Positions 11,845-59,394 of a stretch of 64,000 bases of DNA are shown here, one piece after another (within the stretch, counting starts at the first letter, position 1; each line of letters opens with the position of its first letter). Location: contig JAHCBC010000002.1 of assembly GCA_019634595.1 (NCBI GenBank), positions 372,001 through 436,000 on the forward strand. The letters are read 5' to 3'. The position numbers were made by a program, and so were the translations under genes. The notes beneath the pieces are model-generated. The model was not told the origin of the DNA. It ran no database searches and saw only the letters and a list, made by a program, of their open reading frames with translations. This DNA comes from Akkermansiaceae bacterium (GTDB lineage Bacteria; Verrucomicrobiota; Verrucomicrobiia; Verrucomicrobiales; Akkermansiaceae).

Positions 11845-12017
11845 GGCGGGGTGGATTTTCCATCATCCTTTGATTCCGGTCTTCTGACGATTGCCCCCGC
11901 CGGATGCCATGGAATGGAAGCGGACATAACGACGATGTGGCAATGGCATCCCTGCCCTTCATGGATGACGTCTCCTCCCATGCGATGCCGCTGGGAGTAT
12001 GGAAAGTTCTCCCTGCC

Positions 12018-12036
12018 GTAACGGCGCAGCCGTTAC
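12018..12036. repeat. hairpin repeat, type B (copy 1)
   Basis: Eight-base arms GTAACGGC and GCCGTTAC enclose a GCA loop, embedded between CC and GCTAC. A second hairpin with a different stem but the same outer frame (GCCG before, CGCTAC after) is at 45172-45191. This suggests a family whose stem sequence drifts while the fold is kept. Confidence 0.45.
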
Positions 12037-12114
12037 GCTACCTCCAGCGGTGACACTTGAAAACAGCACGCTCTAGTCACCACCACACCCGCCGCAGCCT
12101 CCTCCATCGCCCCC

Positions 12115-23977: not shown

Positions 23978-24244
23978 ATGCTGCCATTCCACCTACCCGA
24001 GCATGTGGGCTACTGCATCAGTTGTTATGATGCGGAGGGTCCCCTGTTTTCCATTCCCATCAGCGTTTCCACCGCCCAGCTCCGCCAAACGCTCGGCAAA
24101 CAGTGGCCCATTGACGCGACACCACTGACGCGGGAGGAACTGGAGGCGGTGTATCTCTTCGTCACCGGATACATTTCCCTGGGGTGGAGGGAGGAACTCA
24201 AATACTATATCGAGGGGGACAATCTCCCGCCGGGCTGGGAATAG
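23978..24244 (+). CDS. small hypothetical protein
   Basis: An 88-residue protein started at the ATG at 23978, 40 bases after oppC. It has no signal peptide or membrane helix and contains a balanced set of acidic and aromatic residues (YISLGWREELKYYIEG near the C-terminus), which supports real coding. No family is recognised. It may be transcribed with the opp genes. A repeat cluster begins about 90 bases after its stop. Confidence 0.55.
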   Translation: MLPFHLPEHVGYCISCYDAEGPLFSIPISVSTAQLRQTLGKQWPIDATPLTREELEAVYLFVTGYISLGWREELKYYIEGDNLPPGWE

Positions 24245-24333
24245 CGTTGGAGACACTTCTCCGTCAGTCTCTTGGCGCAAGCAGATCTTTCTGCGATCAC
24301 GATATCCGTGTGCTTTGTGTTCCCGTTGCAGCC

Positions 24334-24546
24334 GGTGGACAAGAGTGTCCACCCTCCTTACTGGGAACAGCCGGAGCTGGAGAAGTAAGGAGGAGGGACA
24401 CTCCTGTCCCTCGGCGGCATTGGCGAATAAAGGGACAGGTGGATCTATCCCGGGATGCCTTTGCTATGGGTTCCCATTGCAGCCGGAGGACAAGAATGGG
24501 AGCGCAGCGGACATAGCGGCTCTGCCGCAATGTCCTCCCTCCTTAC
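24334..24546. repeat. cluster of three palindromic stem-loop repeats (type C)
   Basis: Three hairpins share a conserved GTAAGGAG block beside an 8-bp stem. The first is in reverse orientation at 24334-24361 (stem GGTGGACA/TGTCCACC). The second is forward at 24385-24426 (GAGGGACA/TGTCCCTC). The third is reverse at 24485-24546 with a longer loop (GGAGGACA/TGTCCTCC). A fourth copy is at 59353-59394. The stems differ between copies but always by paired changes, so the fold is conserved. The last copy overlaps the priA stop codon. The 298-base gap between the small gene and priA holds nothing else. The organisation is like REP/BIME clusters, and no associated transposase gene was seen here. Confidence 0.75.
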
Positions 24547-26771
24547 GAAAAATTCAGCGCATCCATGTCGAAGGTGACGATGACATCCTCCGGCAGTGTG
24601 GTCCTGGCGAGGACGGCCTGGACGTGGCGTGTGAGGGCGCGCGCGCGGTGGCAGCGGAGGGTGATCTGGAAGCGGAACTGACCGTGTGAGCGGATCAACG
24701 GTGAAGGTAGTACTTCCCCCAGGGTCATGCCCGCGGGCAGGTCCTCCGCCAGCCGAAGGTGCAGGGTCTGGAGCGTGAACTCCGCCCTGCGTTCATGCGT
24801 GGAGCGTGCCGTCAGCACGGCGCAGTGGGAATAGGGCGGAAAGGCGAACTGGTGGCGGAACTCCATCTCCTGCTCCGAGAAGCCGTCGAAGTCATGTTTC
24901 CGCGCGTACTGGATGGACGGCGAGTGCGGCGTGAACGTCTGCACGATGACCTCTCCCTCGAGGTCCCCCCGCCCTGCACGACCCGCGACCTGGGTGAGCA
25001 GCTGGAAGGTGCGCTCGCCCGCCCGGAAGTCCGGCACGTGCAGGCCGAGGTCCGCGTTCAGGATGCCGACCAGAGTCACGTTCGGGAAATGCAGGCCCTT
25101 CGCGATCATCTGGGTGCCGATGAGGATGTCGATCTTGTGCGCCTTGAACGCGTTCAACGTGTCGCGCAGCGCGTTTTTCCGCCGCATGGCGTCCGCATCG
25201 ATGCGCGCGAACTTCGCGGACGGGAACACCTTCGCCAGCACCTCCTCCACCTTCTGCGTGCCGAAGCCCTGGAGAATGATGGCGGGGTCATGGCATTCCG
25301 GGCACTTGCGCGGGACGATCGCCTGGTGGCCGCAGACGTGGCAGACCAGCCGCTCGTCGGTGCGGTGGTAGGTCAGCGCGACCGCGCAATGCGGGCACTG
25401 GCAGACATGGCCGCACTTCGGGCACTGGAGGGAGCGGGCGAAGCCGCGGCGGTTCAGGAACAGGATCGCCTGTTCCCCTTTTTCCAGCCGCTGCTCCAGC
25501 GCGGTGCGCAGCTTGTCGGAAAGGATGGGCAGGCCGCCTTTCATCTTCGCTTTCTCAAGGCGCATGTCCACAACCCTCACCAGCGGCATGGACTGGCCGT
25601 CCGCCCGTTGGGTCAGCCTCACCAGATCATACTTCCCGGTGGTGCAGTTCTGCCATGATTCCAGCGACGGGGTGGCCGAGCCGAGCACGACGGCACAAGG
25701 CTCGAAATGCGCGCGCAGCACGGCGACGTCCCGGCCGTGGTAGCGGGGCGGGTTCTCCTGCTTGTAGGAATTCTCATGCTCCTCATCCACCAGGATCAGC
25801 CCGAGGTCAGGCAACGGCGCGAACACCGCCGACCGCGCGCCGATGACGATGCGCGCCTTCCCCTTGCGGATGCGGTGCCATTCGTCAAAGCGTTCGCCCT
25901 GCGAAAGGTTGGAGTGCAGCACGGCGACCTGATCCTGGATCGCGGCGAAGCGGGCCTTGAAGCGCCGCACGGTCTGAGGCGTCAGTGAAATCTCCGGCAC
26001 CAGGACGAGCACCGTCTTTCCCAGATCCAGCACATGCCACGCCGCCTGAAGATAAACCTCCGTCTTTCCCGATCCGGTGACGCCCAGCAGCAGGATGGGC
26101 TTCGCCGCCCGCGGATCCGCCACGGCCCGGCACACGGTTTCCAGTGCCGCCGCTTGCTCCGTGTTCAGTTGCAACGGCTTCGACTCCAGGATCTCCTCCA
26201 CCATGTCGCCGTCCGGGTCACGGCGGACTTCCTCCGCTTCCAGGGTGATCATGCCGGCTTTCTCCAGCGCCTTCAGCGTCGCCGCGGAGCCGTCGCCGAG
26301 ATCCGCCACGGGCATCCTCTTTCCCTCCGCGTGCATGAGCAGCGACAGGATGGCATGCTGGCGGGGCGCGCGTTTTCCGAGCTTCTCCAACGCCGCCGCG
26401 TCAGGCTCCGCGGCCAGGATGGCAATGCGCCGGGTCTTCGCCGAGTTCTCCTCCGTCCTCACCGCCTCCGGCAAAAGGGACCGCACGACGGATTCAATAC
26501 TGCACCCATAGTAGTCCGCTATCCACCGCCCGGTCTCCAGCAGCACGGGGGTGATGAGCGGCTCCGGCTCCACCAGCGCCTCCAGCTCCCGGAGCGCGAA
26601 GTCGGCCTGGCCGTCCGCCTCACCGACGGAGAGGACGGTACCCGCGGCGGACTTCCGCCGCAGCGGGACACGCACGCGGCAGCCCGGCCGGACGTTCATC
26701 CCGGCGGGGATGCCATAGTCGAAGACCAGCTCCGAAGGTCCGTCGATGAGCACGCGCGCGTTCAATGCCAT
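24543..26771 (-). CDS. priA: primosomal replication restart helicase PriA
   Basis: 742 residues from the ATG at 26771 (ALNARVLIDGPS), which fits the family better than the longer frame start at 26819. The N-terminal 3'-DNA-binding domain (about 1-100) is followed by the superfamily 2 helicase core. Walker A is VTGSGKTEVYLQAA, the Walker B-type box is LVDEEHENSYKQE and the last motif is QVAGRAGRGDLEG. The cysteine cluster (CPKCGHVCQCPHC, then CHVCG and CPEC) binds two zinc ions. PriA recognises stalled or recombining forks and reloads the replisome. Its 3' end overlaps a type C repeat. Confidence 0.95.
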   Translation of the reverse strand: MALNARVLIDGPSELVFDYGIPAGMNVRPGCRVRVPLRRKSAAGTVLSVGEADGQADFALRELEALVEPEPLITPVLLETGRWIADYYGCSIESVVRSLLPEAVRTEENSAKTRRIAILAAEPDAAALEKLGKRAPRQHAILSLLMHAEGKRMPVADLGDGSAATLKALEKAGMITLEAEEVRRDPDGDMVEEILESKPLQLNTEQAAALETVCRAVADPRAAKPILLLGVTGSGKTEVYLQAAWHVLDLGKTVLVLVPEISLTPQTVRRFKARFAAIQDQVAVLHSNLSQGERFDEWHRIRKGKARIVIGARSAVFAPLPDLGLILVDEEHENSYKQENPPRYHGRDVAVLRAHFEPCAVVLGSATPSLESWQNCTTGKYDLVRLTQRADGQSMPLVRVVDMRLEKAKMKGGLPILSDKLRTALEQRLEKGEQAILFLNRRGFARSLQCPKCGHVCQCPHCAVALTYHRTDERLVCHVCGHQAIVPRKCPECHDPAIILQGFGTQKVEEVLAKVFPSAKFARIDADAMRRKNALRDTLNAFKAHKIDILIGTQMIAKGLHFPNVTLVGILNADLGLHVPDFRAGERTFQLLTQVAGRAGRGDLEGEVIVQTFTPHSPSIQYARKHDFDGFSEQEMEFRHQFAFPPYSHCAVLTARSTHERRAEFTLQTLHLRLAEDLPAGMTLGEVLPSPLIRSHGQFRFQITLRCHRARALTRHVQAVLARTTLPEDVIVTFDMDALNFS

Positions 26772-26858
26772 GAGGATGCGCCGCGTCCATGCGCGGGCCA
26801 AGCGCCAAGTCACTGGCATACCTCACGGACGGCGACCAATGATCGCCGCCACTTTCGG

Positions 26859-51837: not shown

Positions 51838-51964
51838 GACGACCGCATGATGGGGCCGCCCGCCGGTGCCGTCCGTAAAGGGAGTGTAAATTCGCTTCAG
51901 ATCCGCGGTGGCGCTGGAACCACGTGGAATGCGGTCCCTGCCACCCGCTCCGGCAGAGTGAAAC

Positions 51965-58577: not shown

Positions 58578-58598
58578 GCACCGGTTGATTCTCCGGTC

Positions 58599-58632
58599 GG
58601 GAGTCCGGCATCATGCCGGACTCCCTTTTTTT
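58599..58632 (+). terminator. rho-independent terminator
   Basis: A perfect 12-bp stem (58599-58610 with 58614-58625, three-base loop) is followed by seven T residues, 22 bases after the exported-protein stop. Confidence 0.92.
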
Positions 58633-58692
58633 GCATCCCGATGGAATAAATTTCCGGAGGACTTTCGCGCGGGATCAGTGTTGAATGCCGAT

Positions 58693-59352
58693 ATGCACAC
58701 CCCCTTTCCCGGACGCCGGACCTTCATGCGGAACTTCGTGGTGGGTGCCGCGGGACTTTGGATCCCCGGAGCCTTCGCCGAGGCGCTCACGCTCACGCCA
58801 CGCCAGACGGAGGGGCCGTTCTATCCCACGGATCTGCCGCTGGATACGGACAACGACCTCATCATCATCAATGATTCCACCAACCCGTCGCTCGGGGAGA
58901 TCACCCATCTCAGCGGGCGCGTGCTGGACGAGAAAGGCGCTCCCATCCGCAACGCGCTGGTGGAGATCTGGCAGGCCGACCAGAACGGGGTCTATCTCCA
59001 CAAGGGGAGCGATGGCGCGGAAAAGCGGGACGGAAACTTCCAGGGCTTCGGCCGGTTCCTCACCGGCTCCGCGGGCGAGTATTATTTCCGCACCATCAAG
59101 CCGGTGAAATATCCCGGCCGCGTGCCCCACATCCACTTCGCCGTGAAGATGAAGGGCCGCGAGAAATGGACCACCCAGCTCTACGTGAAGGGTGACCCGG
59201 CGAACGAAAAGGACTTCGTGATCCGCAACATCAAGGACGCCGCCCAGCGCGAGTCCGTCATCCGCGAGTTCAAGCCCATCCCCGGCAGCAAGGCGGGTGA
59301 ACTGGCCGTGACCTTCGACATCGTGATGGGCTTCACGCCGCAGGATGGGTGA
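58693..59352 (+). CDS. intradiol ring-cleavage dioxygenase-like protein
   Basis: 219 residues from the ATG at 58693. The signal has a Tat-like RRTFM motif and a hydrophobic stretch, so it is probably exported folded. The core opens with TPRQTEGPFYPTDLP, then GRVLDEKGAPIRNALVEIWQ, the family signature. The Fe(III) ligands are expected at Tyr in EYYFRTIKP and the His pair in PHIHFAV, with a further Tyr in FYPTD. Family members cleave catechol or protocatechuate between the hydroxyls. An exported form is typical of Verrucomicrobiota and related phyla, and its substrate is unknown. Confidence 0.82.
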   Translation: MHTPFPGRRTFMRNFVVGAAGLWIPGAFAEALTLTPRQTEGPFYPTDLPLDTDNDLIIINDSTNPSLGEITHLSGRVLDEKGAPIRNALVEIWQADQNGVYLHKGSDGAEKRDGNFQGFGRFLTGSAGEYYFRTIKPVKYPGRVPHIHFAVKMKGREKWTTQLYVKGDPANEKDFVIRNIKDAAQRESVIREFKPIPGSKAGELAVTFDIVMGFTPQDG

Positions 59353-59394
59353 GTAAGGAGGAGGCACACTCCTGTGCCTCGGCGGCATTGGCGA
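59353..59394 (+). repeat. palindromic stem-loop repeat, type C (isolated copy)
   Basis: Forty of 42 bases match the copy at 24385-24426. The only two differences are in the stem and compensate each other (GAGGCACA/TGTGCCTC versus GAGGGACA/TGTCCCTC). Weaker similarity continues to about 59470. It sits directly after the dioxygenase stop and in front of a broken nucleotidyltransferase. Confidence 0.8.

Follow-up and report, generated by a model that had tools for sequence, protein, structure and literature searches.

A family of hairpin repeats with covarying stems, mostly arranged as inverted REP-like pairs, and its probable RAYT transposase in an Akkermansiaceae bacterium

The window analysed here, a stretch of 64,000 nucleotides (C2:372001-436000 of the draft genome G000, which comprises 5.09 Mb in nine contigs), carries four copies of a short stem-loop repeat, three of them clustered at 24320-24546 (Table 1). 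All four were located where a first-pass annotation had placed them, and each of their stems (GGTGGACA, GAGGGACA, GGAGGACA and GAGGCACA) is accompanied by its exact complement. A unit runs from the head GTAAGGAG, of which the window contains four compared with an expectation of 0.51, through an 8-bp stem, a loop of CTC[C/T] and the second arm to a tail of one of two types, GGCGGCATTGG or GGCTGCAA, and measures about 42 nt in its short form or about 76 nt in its long form. The annotation had described a common flank and 8-bp stem, which holds for all four copies, but copy 3 proved to be a long form whose arms lie 38 nt apart, as against 4 nt in the short form, with a 34-nt module occupying the loop; in folding, the inner hairpin is favoured over the outer 8-bp stem. 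Copies 2 and 3 are the left and right halves of a complete inverted pair with outward heads, full-length relatives of which occur elsewhere in G000 at 82-90% identity. Copy 1, with the loop AGAG (CTCT on the minus strand), is a single unit whose left partner is missing or decayed. Copy 4 has no recognisable second unit to its right, and its head lies immediately 3' of the TGA of the ORF at 58585-59352. The head of every unit also holds TAAGGAGG (for example at 24385-24393), a Shine-Dalgarno consensus that in many genes begins with the stop codon.

Table 1. Repeats and associated features in the 64,000-nucleotide window.
Feature	Position	Strand	Parts and remarks
REP copy 1, short form	24320-24361	-	covariance-model match C2:396320-396361; tail 24320-24333; hairpin 24334-24353, stem GGTGGACA 24334-24341 / TGTCCACC 24346-24353; head GTAAGGAG 24354-24361
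REP copy 2, short form	24385-24426	+	head 24385-24392; stem GAGGGACA / TGTCCCTC 24393-24412; tail GGCGGCATTGGCGA
REP copy 3, long form	24471-24546	-	hairpin 24485-24538, arms 24485-24492 and 24531-24538; head 24539-24546; best score of the long-form covariance model (C2:396471-396546)
34-nt module in copy 3 loop	24496-24529	-	on the minus strand TGCGGCAGAGCCGCTATGTCCGCTGCGCTCCCAT; CAT on either side
Complete inverted pair, REPIN/BIME-like, heads outward	24385-24546	.	162 bp; copies 2 and 3
priA stop codon TAA	24543-24545	-	provided by the copy 3 head; gene 24543-26819 (-)
REP copy 4, short form	59353-59394	+	head 59353-59360; stem GAGGCACA / TGTGCCTC 59361-59380; tail GGCGGCATTGGCGA
Second-family copy, decayed long form	11897-11960	-	shortened module
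Second-family copy	51918-51942	-	
GTAG-type REP (GGTAGCGTAACGGCTGCGCCGTTAC)	~12017-12041	-	resembles the REPs on either side of the third RAYT

The proposal that the stem bases change in pairs was borne out across the genome. By head, loop and tail, and with no pairing condition, 113 short copies were gathered, which reduced to 79 distinct sequences with 17 stem types. Relative to the commonest stem pair, 51 changes were compensatory and only 8 one-sided or unpaired, so that unpaired changes are far from being as frequent as paired ones. Fully paired stems were found in 73 of the 79 distinct copies, compared with a mean of 25.5 after shuffling of the arms, and G-U combinations filled 2 of 904 cells. 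The statistical test that the annotation had called for, run on 39 representative distinct rows, likewise returned strong covariation: 98.4% of cells were paired versus 86.0% after shuffling, and the covariation score reached 0.343 versus 0.094, with none of 500 shuffles equally high and no slid stem register approaching the true one. Part of this within-genome covariation reflects whole units having been exchanged at sites that stay fixed, and the 51 cells are not 51 independent events.

Two covariance models run over G000 gave at least 149 matches of the short type and about 60 of the long type, defining a non-coding family of about 185 heads or units that stand mostly in inverted pairs at gene ends. 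Once clustered, the matches resolved into 67 head-out pairs ('+-'), 48 single units and one '-+' arrangement, the pairs being about 104-370 bp long with perfect terminal inverted repeats. A short palindrome in high copy number, lying mainly between genes (145 heads have an ORF end nearby) and predominantly in inverted pairs, corresponds to what is expected of REPs and REPINs. The GT[A/G]G foot of such elements is absent, however, and its place is taken by GGAG, conserved at 100, 100, 99 and 96% over its four positions in the 79 distinct copies. The family is accordingly classed as a REP variant and not as a GTAG REP; subclass 2.6 has been reported with atypical structures.

The search for a RAYT/TnpA-REP gene, another suggestion of the annotation, was successful. 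RAYT1 (C5:198137-198736; product of 200 aa) lies between ffh and miaA in G000 with REP pairs on both sides. It fell below the threshold of a Pfam Y1_Tnp search of G000 and was located via the sister species G093 (one contig), which carries the same REP family (144 matches) and, at the same ffh/miaA locus, a Y1 transposase gene between two REP pairs (C1:3699981-3700580), whose protein is 92% identical to RAYT1. The six Y1_Tnp genes returned by the Pfam search of G000 were rejected as the cognate transposase, none of them adjoining these REPs; most are flanked by terminal inverted repeats and one by GTAG-type REPs. RAYT1 possesses the HUH motif (PNH-x-H) and the catalytic tyrosine (YIRRNP), as seen in its alignment to E. 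coli TnpA-REP (PDB 4er8, E 2e-5). Its best family is NCBIfam REP_Tyr_transpos (E 2e-15), at 56.7 bits against a curated cut-off of 80, and the assignment as a RAYT rests on its other features.

Furthermore, among 145 sampled Akkermansiaceae genomes, relatives of RAYT1 at 49-66% identity were found in 21 genomes beyond G000 and G093, giving 23 in total; nearly all relatives have a single orthologue in each genome. The PNH-x-H motif, the WQ and the tyrosine of YIRRNP are nearly invariant across the 23, and most of the genes are sandwiched by hairpins. Of 68 hairpins lying no more than about 260 nt from the genes, G000 and the sister included, 50 carry the GGAG foot. The stems beside the relatives are perfectly paired and are unrelated both to the G000 stems and between species, as in GGGCTGG[TCT]CCAGCCC, CGCAGCA[TTC]TGCTGCG and CATCGACA[TTCC]TGTCGATG; these between-species stems are stronger evidence for the fold than the covariation within one genome. 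The GGAG of the downstream REP directly abuts the stop, be it TAA, TAG or TGA, in 12 of the 23 RAYT1-type genes. The REP pattern was detected in 16 of the 23 genomes with RAYT1 and in 17 of the 122 without it (P 1.4e-7, uncorrected for kinship), the association being weak when only the genus is considered (P 0.09). RAYT1 is missing from some REP-positive genomes, which suggests that other RAYTs may act on similar REPs.

Taken together, these repeats are very probably REPs, mostly joined as REPINs, that are non-autonomous and mobilised by the HUH/Y1 transposase RAYT1, with binding, cleavage, single-stranded transposition and target choice deduced from homology and pattern. On single-stranded DNA, for instance on the lagging strand, the palindrome would fold into a hairpin, and RAYT1 would recognise this hairpin along with GGAG, the foot at the hairpin's 5' base and the putative equivalent of the GTAG guide in known REPs. 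The enzyme would then cleave through a 5'-phosphotyrosine link, and the pair would be joined to new sites, with a preference for gene ends that place TAA or a similar stop immediately before GGAG. Together with exchange between copies, selection for the hairpin substrate could keep the arms complementary as their sequence shifts. The first-pass annotation had offered two grounds for selection on the fold, as RNA or as a DNA substrate of a RAYT-like transposase; the DNA half is well supported by RAYT1 being embedded in the repeats here, in the sister and in most of about 20 further species, and the RNA half less so. Mobilisation by RAYT1 is nevertheless opposed by the absence of the defining GTAG/GTGG foot, by a profile score below the NCBIfam cut-off, by the weak genus-level association, by the REP-positive genomes devoid of RAYT1, and by the sister genome, where REPs occupy the same place at most aligned loci and no recent move to new sites is documented.

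At 31 loci both flanks could be aligned to the sister; 28 carry REPs in both genomes, and no clean empty site was found in the sister. At the loci in common, the inner sequence is only 19-86% identical while the flanks are 76-97% identical, which indicates that units have been replaced in place, either by gene conversion or by repeated insertion, two routes that the data do not separate. Position-matched outer units differ accordingly, 12 of 39 having another stem in the sister and 15 of 39 the other loop form (short versus long). Tandem runs of short units (of the GGCGTCCTT and GGCTTTGC type) were also observed in or beside REP pairs of the sister (G093:C1:1926000-1945500, L220; also L310), and these runs are short or absent in G000. 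Such exchange of whole units at shared sites whose flanks stay similar lends some weight to the idea that covariation reflects no selection at all, perfect arms being restored when one copy converts another or when the template switches within the palindrome. This is rather unlikely as the full account, since it leaves unexplained both the unrelated stems beside orthologous RAYTs and the conserved GGAG foot, and arm correction and selection may act together.

The position of the heads relative to genes was assessed in 700 kb around the hits in G000 and in about 1.4 Mb of the sister genome. For 145 of the 185 heads, the end of a long ORF falls between -120 and +60 nt of the head. In 58 of the 185, the head itself provides the ORF stop as TAA (or TGA, TAG), and in 10 the stop stands directly before the head; the offsets thus form a sharp spike, with 58 of 145 at a single value and the next highest reaching 10. 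The same offset recurs in the sister (28 of 74), and A occupies position -1 of the head in 53-70% of cases, compared with 18.5% in the background. It might be argued that the heads follow no preferred stop-codon site and that the REP inserts inside a gene end and supplies a new stop; the head does carry TAA in one frame, GTAG REPs are reported as a frequent source of TAG stops (Di Nocera et al., 2013; PMC3733652), and RsmI appears shorter than its family model, ending at 220 of 275. RsmI is the exception, however: where family models exist, most proteins that stop in the head reach the C-terminal end of their model, including TrmD (222 aa, to 221/221), PriA (757 aa, to 728/729), alanine racemase (370 aa, to 369/369), Rho, homoserine dehydrogenase and ALAD, which suggests insertion at existing stops and not truncation. 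At one locus, moreover, the stop is identically placed in the sister although its REP lies about 30 bp away. Given these proteins and the recurrence of the one-offset spike in the sister, insertion that creates new stops is unlikely. Head-supplied stops are a parallel to the TAG stops that GTAG REPs often give to flanking ORFs (PMC3733652), measured more closely here.

The proximity of 145 heads to ORF ends would also place the hairpins in many 3' UTRs, where, their RNA folding being stable, they could be kept mainly as RNA, as 3'-end elements that end transcription or protect the 3' ends of mRNA. G-U pairs are tolerated in RNA and not in DNA, yet the stems show almost only Watson-Crick swaps; the near-absence of G-U speaks for DNA over RNA hairpins, with the reservation that arm correction inside palindromes would look alike. 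No T-run follows the arms of the REP hairpins on either strand, so that they lack the combination of GC-rich hairpin and T-run of an intrinsic terminator, and two weak terminator-like hits at 24200-24700 are not in the REP stem register. An Rfam search of the whole window returned no match. In addition, RAYT1 genes flanked across species by stems that differ and remain paired support a single-stranded DNA substrate over an RNA element. Maintenance mainly as RNA is consequently very unlikely, and a secondary RNA role may exist besides that of a DNA substrate. A further possibility, that a DDE transposase moves the pairs as MITEs bounded by the terminal repeats GTAAGGAG...CTCCTTAC, draws on their size of 100-370 bp and on the perfect match of their terminal inverted repeats. 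It was rejected as extremely improbable because target-site duplication at the 67 pairs was no more frequent than in shuffled flanks, which fits the expectation for the IS200/IS605 type, and because the occurrence of single units and of a RAYT between REPs points to REPs.

The loop of the long form has the content TGCGGC-NNN-GCCGC-[T/C]ATGTCCGCTNCGCT[C/T]CCAT, with CAT on either side. About ten places carry the same 34-nt module in hairpin loops of a second family, GGCAGGGACCGCAT-TCC-ATGCGGTC. This second family also forms head-out pairs with paired stem changes, and it surrounds its own RAYT, L230 (G000 C5:41117-41323; ORF of 222 aa; REP type GGCAGGGACCGCATTCCATGCGGTC), which scores 77.4 bits against the NCBIfam RAYT model with its cut-off of 80. 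In the part of the sister genome that was read, 20 modules lie in the first family. In 58 other relatives, only two single partial matches to the module were found, both outside REPs; across the genomes of 59 relatives and a named genome collection, matches beyond the clade were likewise only single, partial and without REP context. The lower strand of the module reads GCGNAGC, with all four bases seen at N, a type of sequence associated with GNA-loop DNA mini-hairpins of exceptional stability. It is conceivable, though doubtful, that the module is itself mobile or copied, entering REP loops at CAT^TCC and spreading in two REP families served by two RAYTs, and the GCGNAGC sequence would suggest selection on single-stranded DNA. 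An apparent third REP-RAYT pair of G000 consists of L036 (C1:1021124-1024285) with REPs CGTCGTGGCGCAGCCACGACGCTACC on both sides.

RAYT-like Y1_Tnp domains were also noticed in frame within housekeeping ORFs (L033, G000 C5:75232-78408; L035, G000 C2:345277-348480; L185, L202, L182, L184, L254 and L253). The hosts are MetH and IspG in G000, IspG and leucyl-tRNA synthetase in relatives, and an HsdR-like protein in another, and the G000 copies have terminal inverted repeats of 25-47 bp on their flanks. A narrow literature search found no paper on such in-frame domains.

Compared with known systems, the family resembles the GTAG-superfamily REPs in its short palindrome with an unpaired 5' head, its many copies and inverted dimers, its placement at gene 3' ends, the stop codons given by its heads and the presence of several families per genome (Di Nocera et al., 2013; PMC3733652), and families of that superfamily also occur in Verrucomicrobia, in Opitutus terrae (PMC3733652). 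It differs from them in the GGAG foot (head GTAAGGAG), in a stop of TAA instead of TAG, and in the 34-nt module common to the loops of two families. The pairs resemble REPINs, in which two inverted REPs form a mobile unit with many copies and one RAYT (Bertels and Rainey, 2011; PMC3116915), but they end in GTAAGGAG, their left and right units carry two tail types (GGCGGCATTGG and GGCTGCAA), and their left and right loop forms often differ. Similarly to RAYT/TnpA-REP genes, RAYT1 lies between inverted REPs, carries HUH and tyrosine motifs and usually has one orthologue per genome (Nunvar et al., 2010; PMC2817692); a further likeness is that it adjoins miaA in no fewer than three species (G000, G093 and G192), in line with a single-copy gene that is inherited vertically. 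Similarity to E. coli TnpA-REP is low (27.8 bits), and the RAYT1 clade of Akkermansiaceae is set apart by proteins of about 200 aa, an N-terminal PHWQQ...FVTFRL region and the cognate foot GGAG. Perfect palindromes are a likeness to RAYT group 3 enzymes (PMC8266576). Related Y1 proteins in G000 with terminal inverted repeats of 21-47 bp recall TIRYT elements (subclass 2.1; PMC6006769), whereas RAYT1 is flanked by REPs and not by terminal inverted repeats.

Altogether, the system is of a known kind, REP/REPIN-RAYT, and departs from the GTAG superfamily in its GGAG foot and nested loop module. It extends RAYT-REP systems to a clade present in 23 of the 145 sampled Akkermansiaceae genomes. Within this clade, each genome has its own stem and largely the same GGAG foot, providing a natural series from which to learn how foot, loop and stem are read by a RAYT. 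That heads coincide precisely with native stop codons, in the sister species as well as here, offers a testable target rule. Furthermore, two sister genomes with the same sites and exchanged contents allow the in-place replacement of REP units to be measured, which bears on REPIN dynamics.
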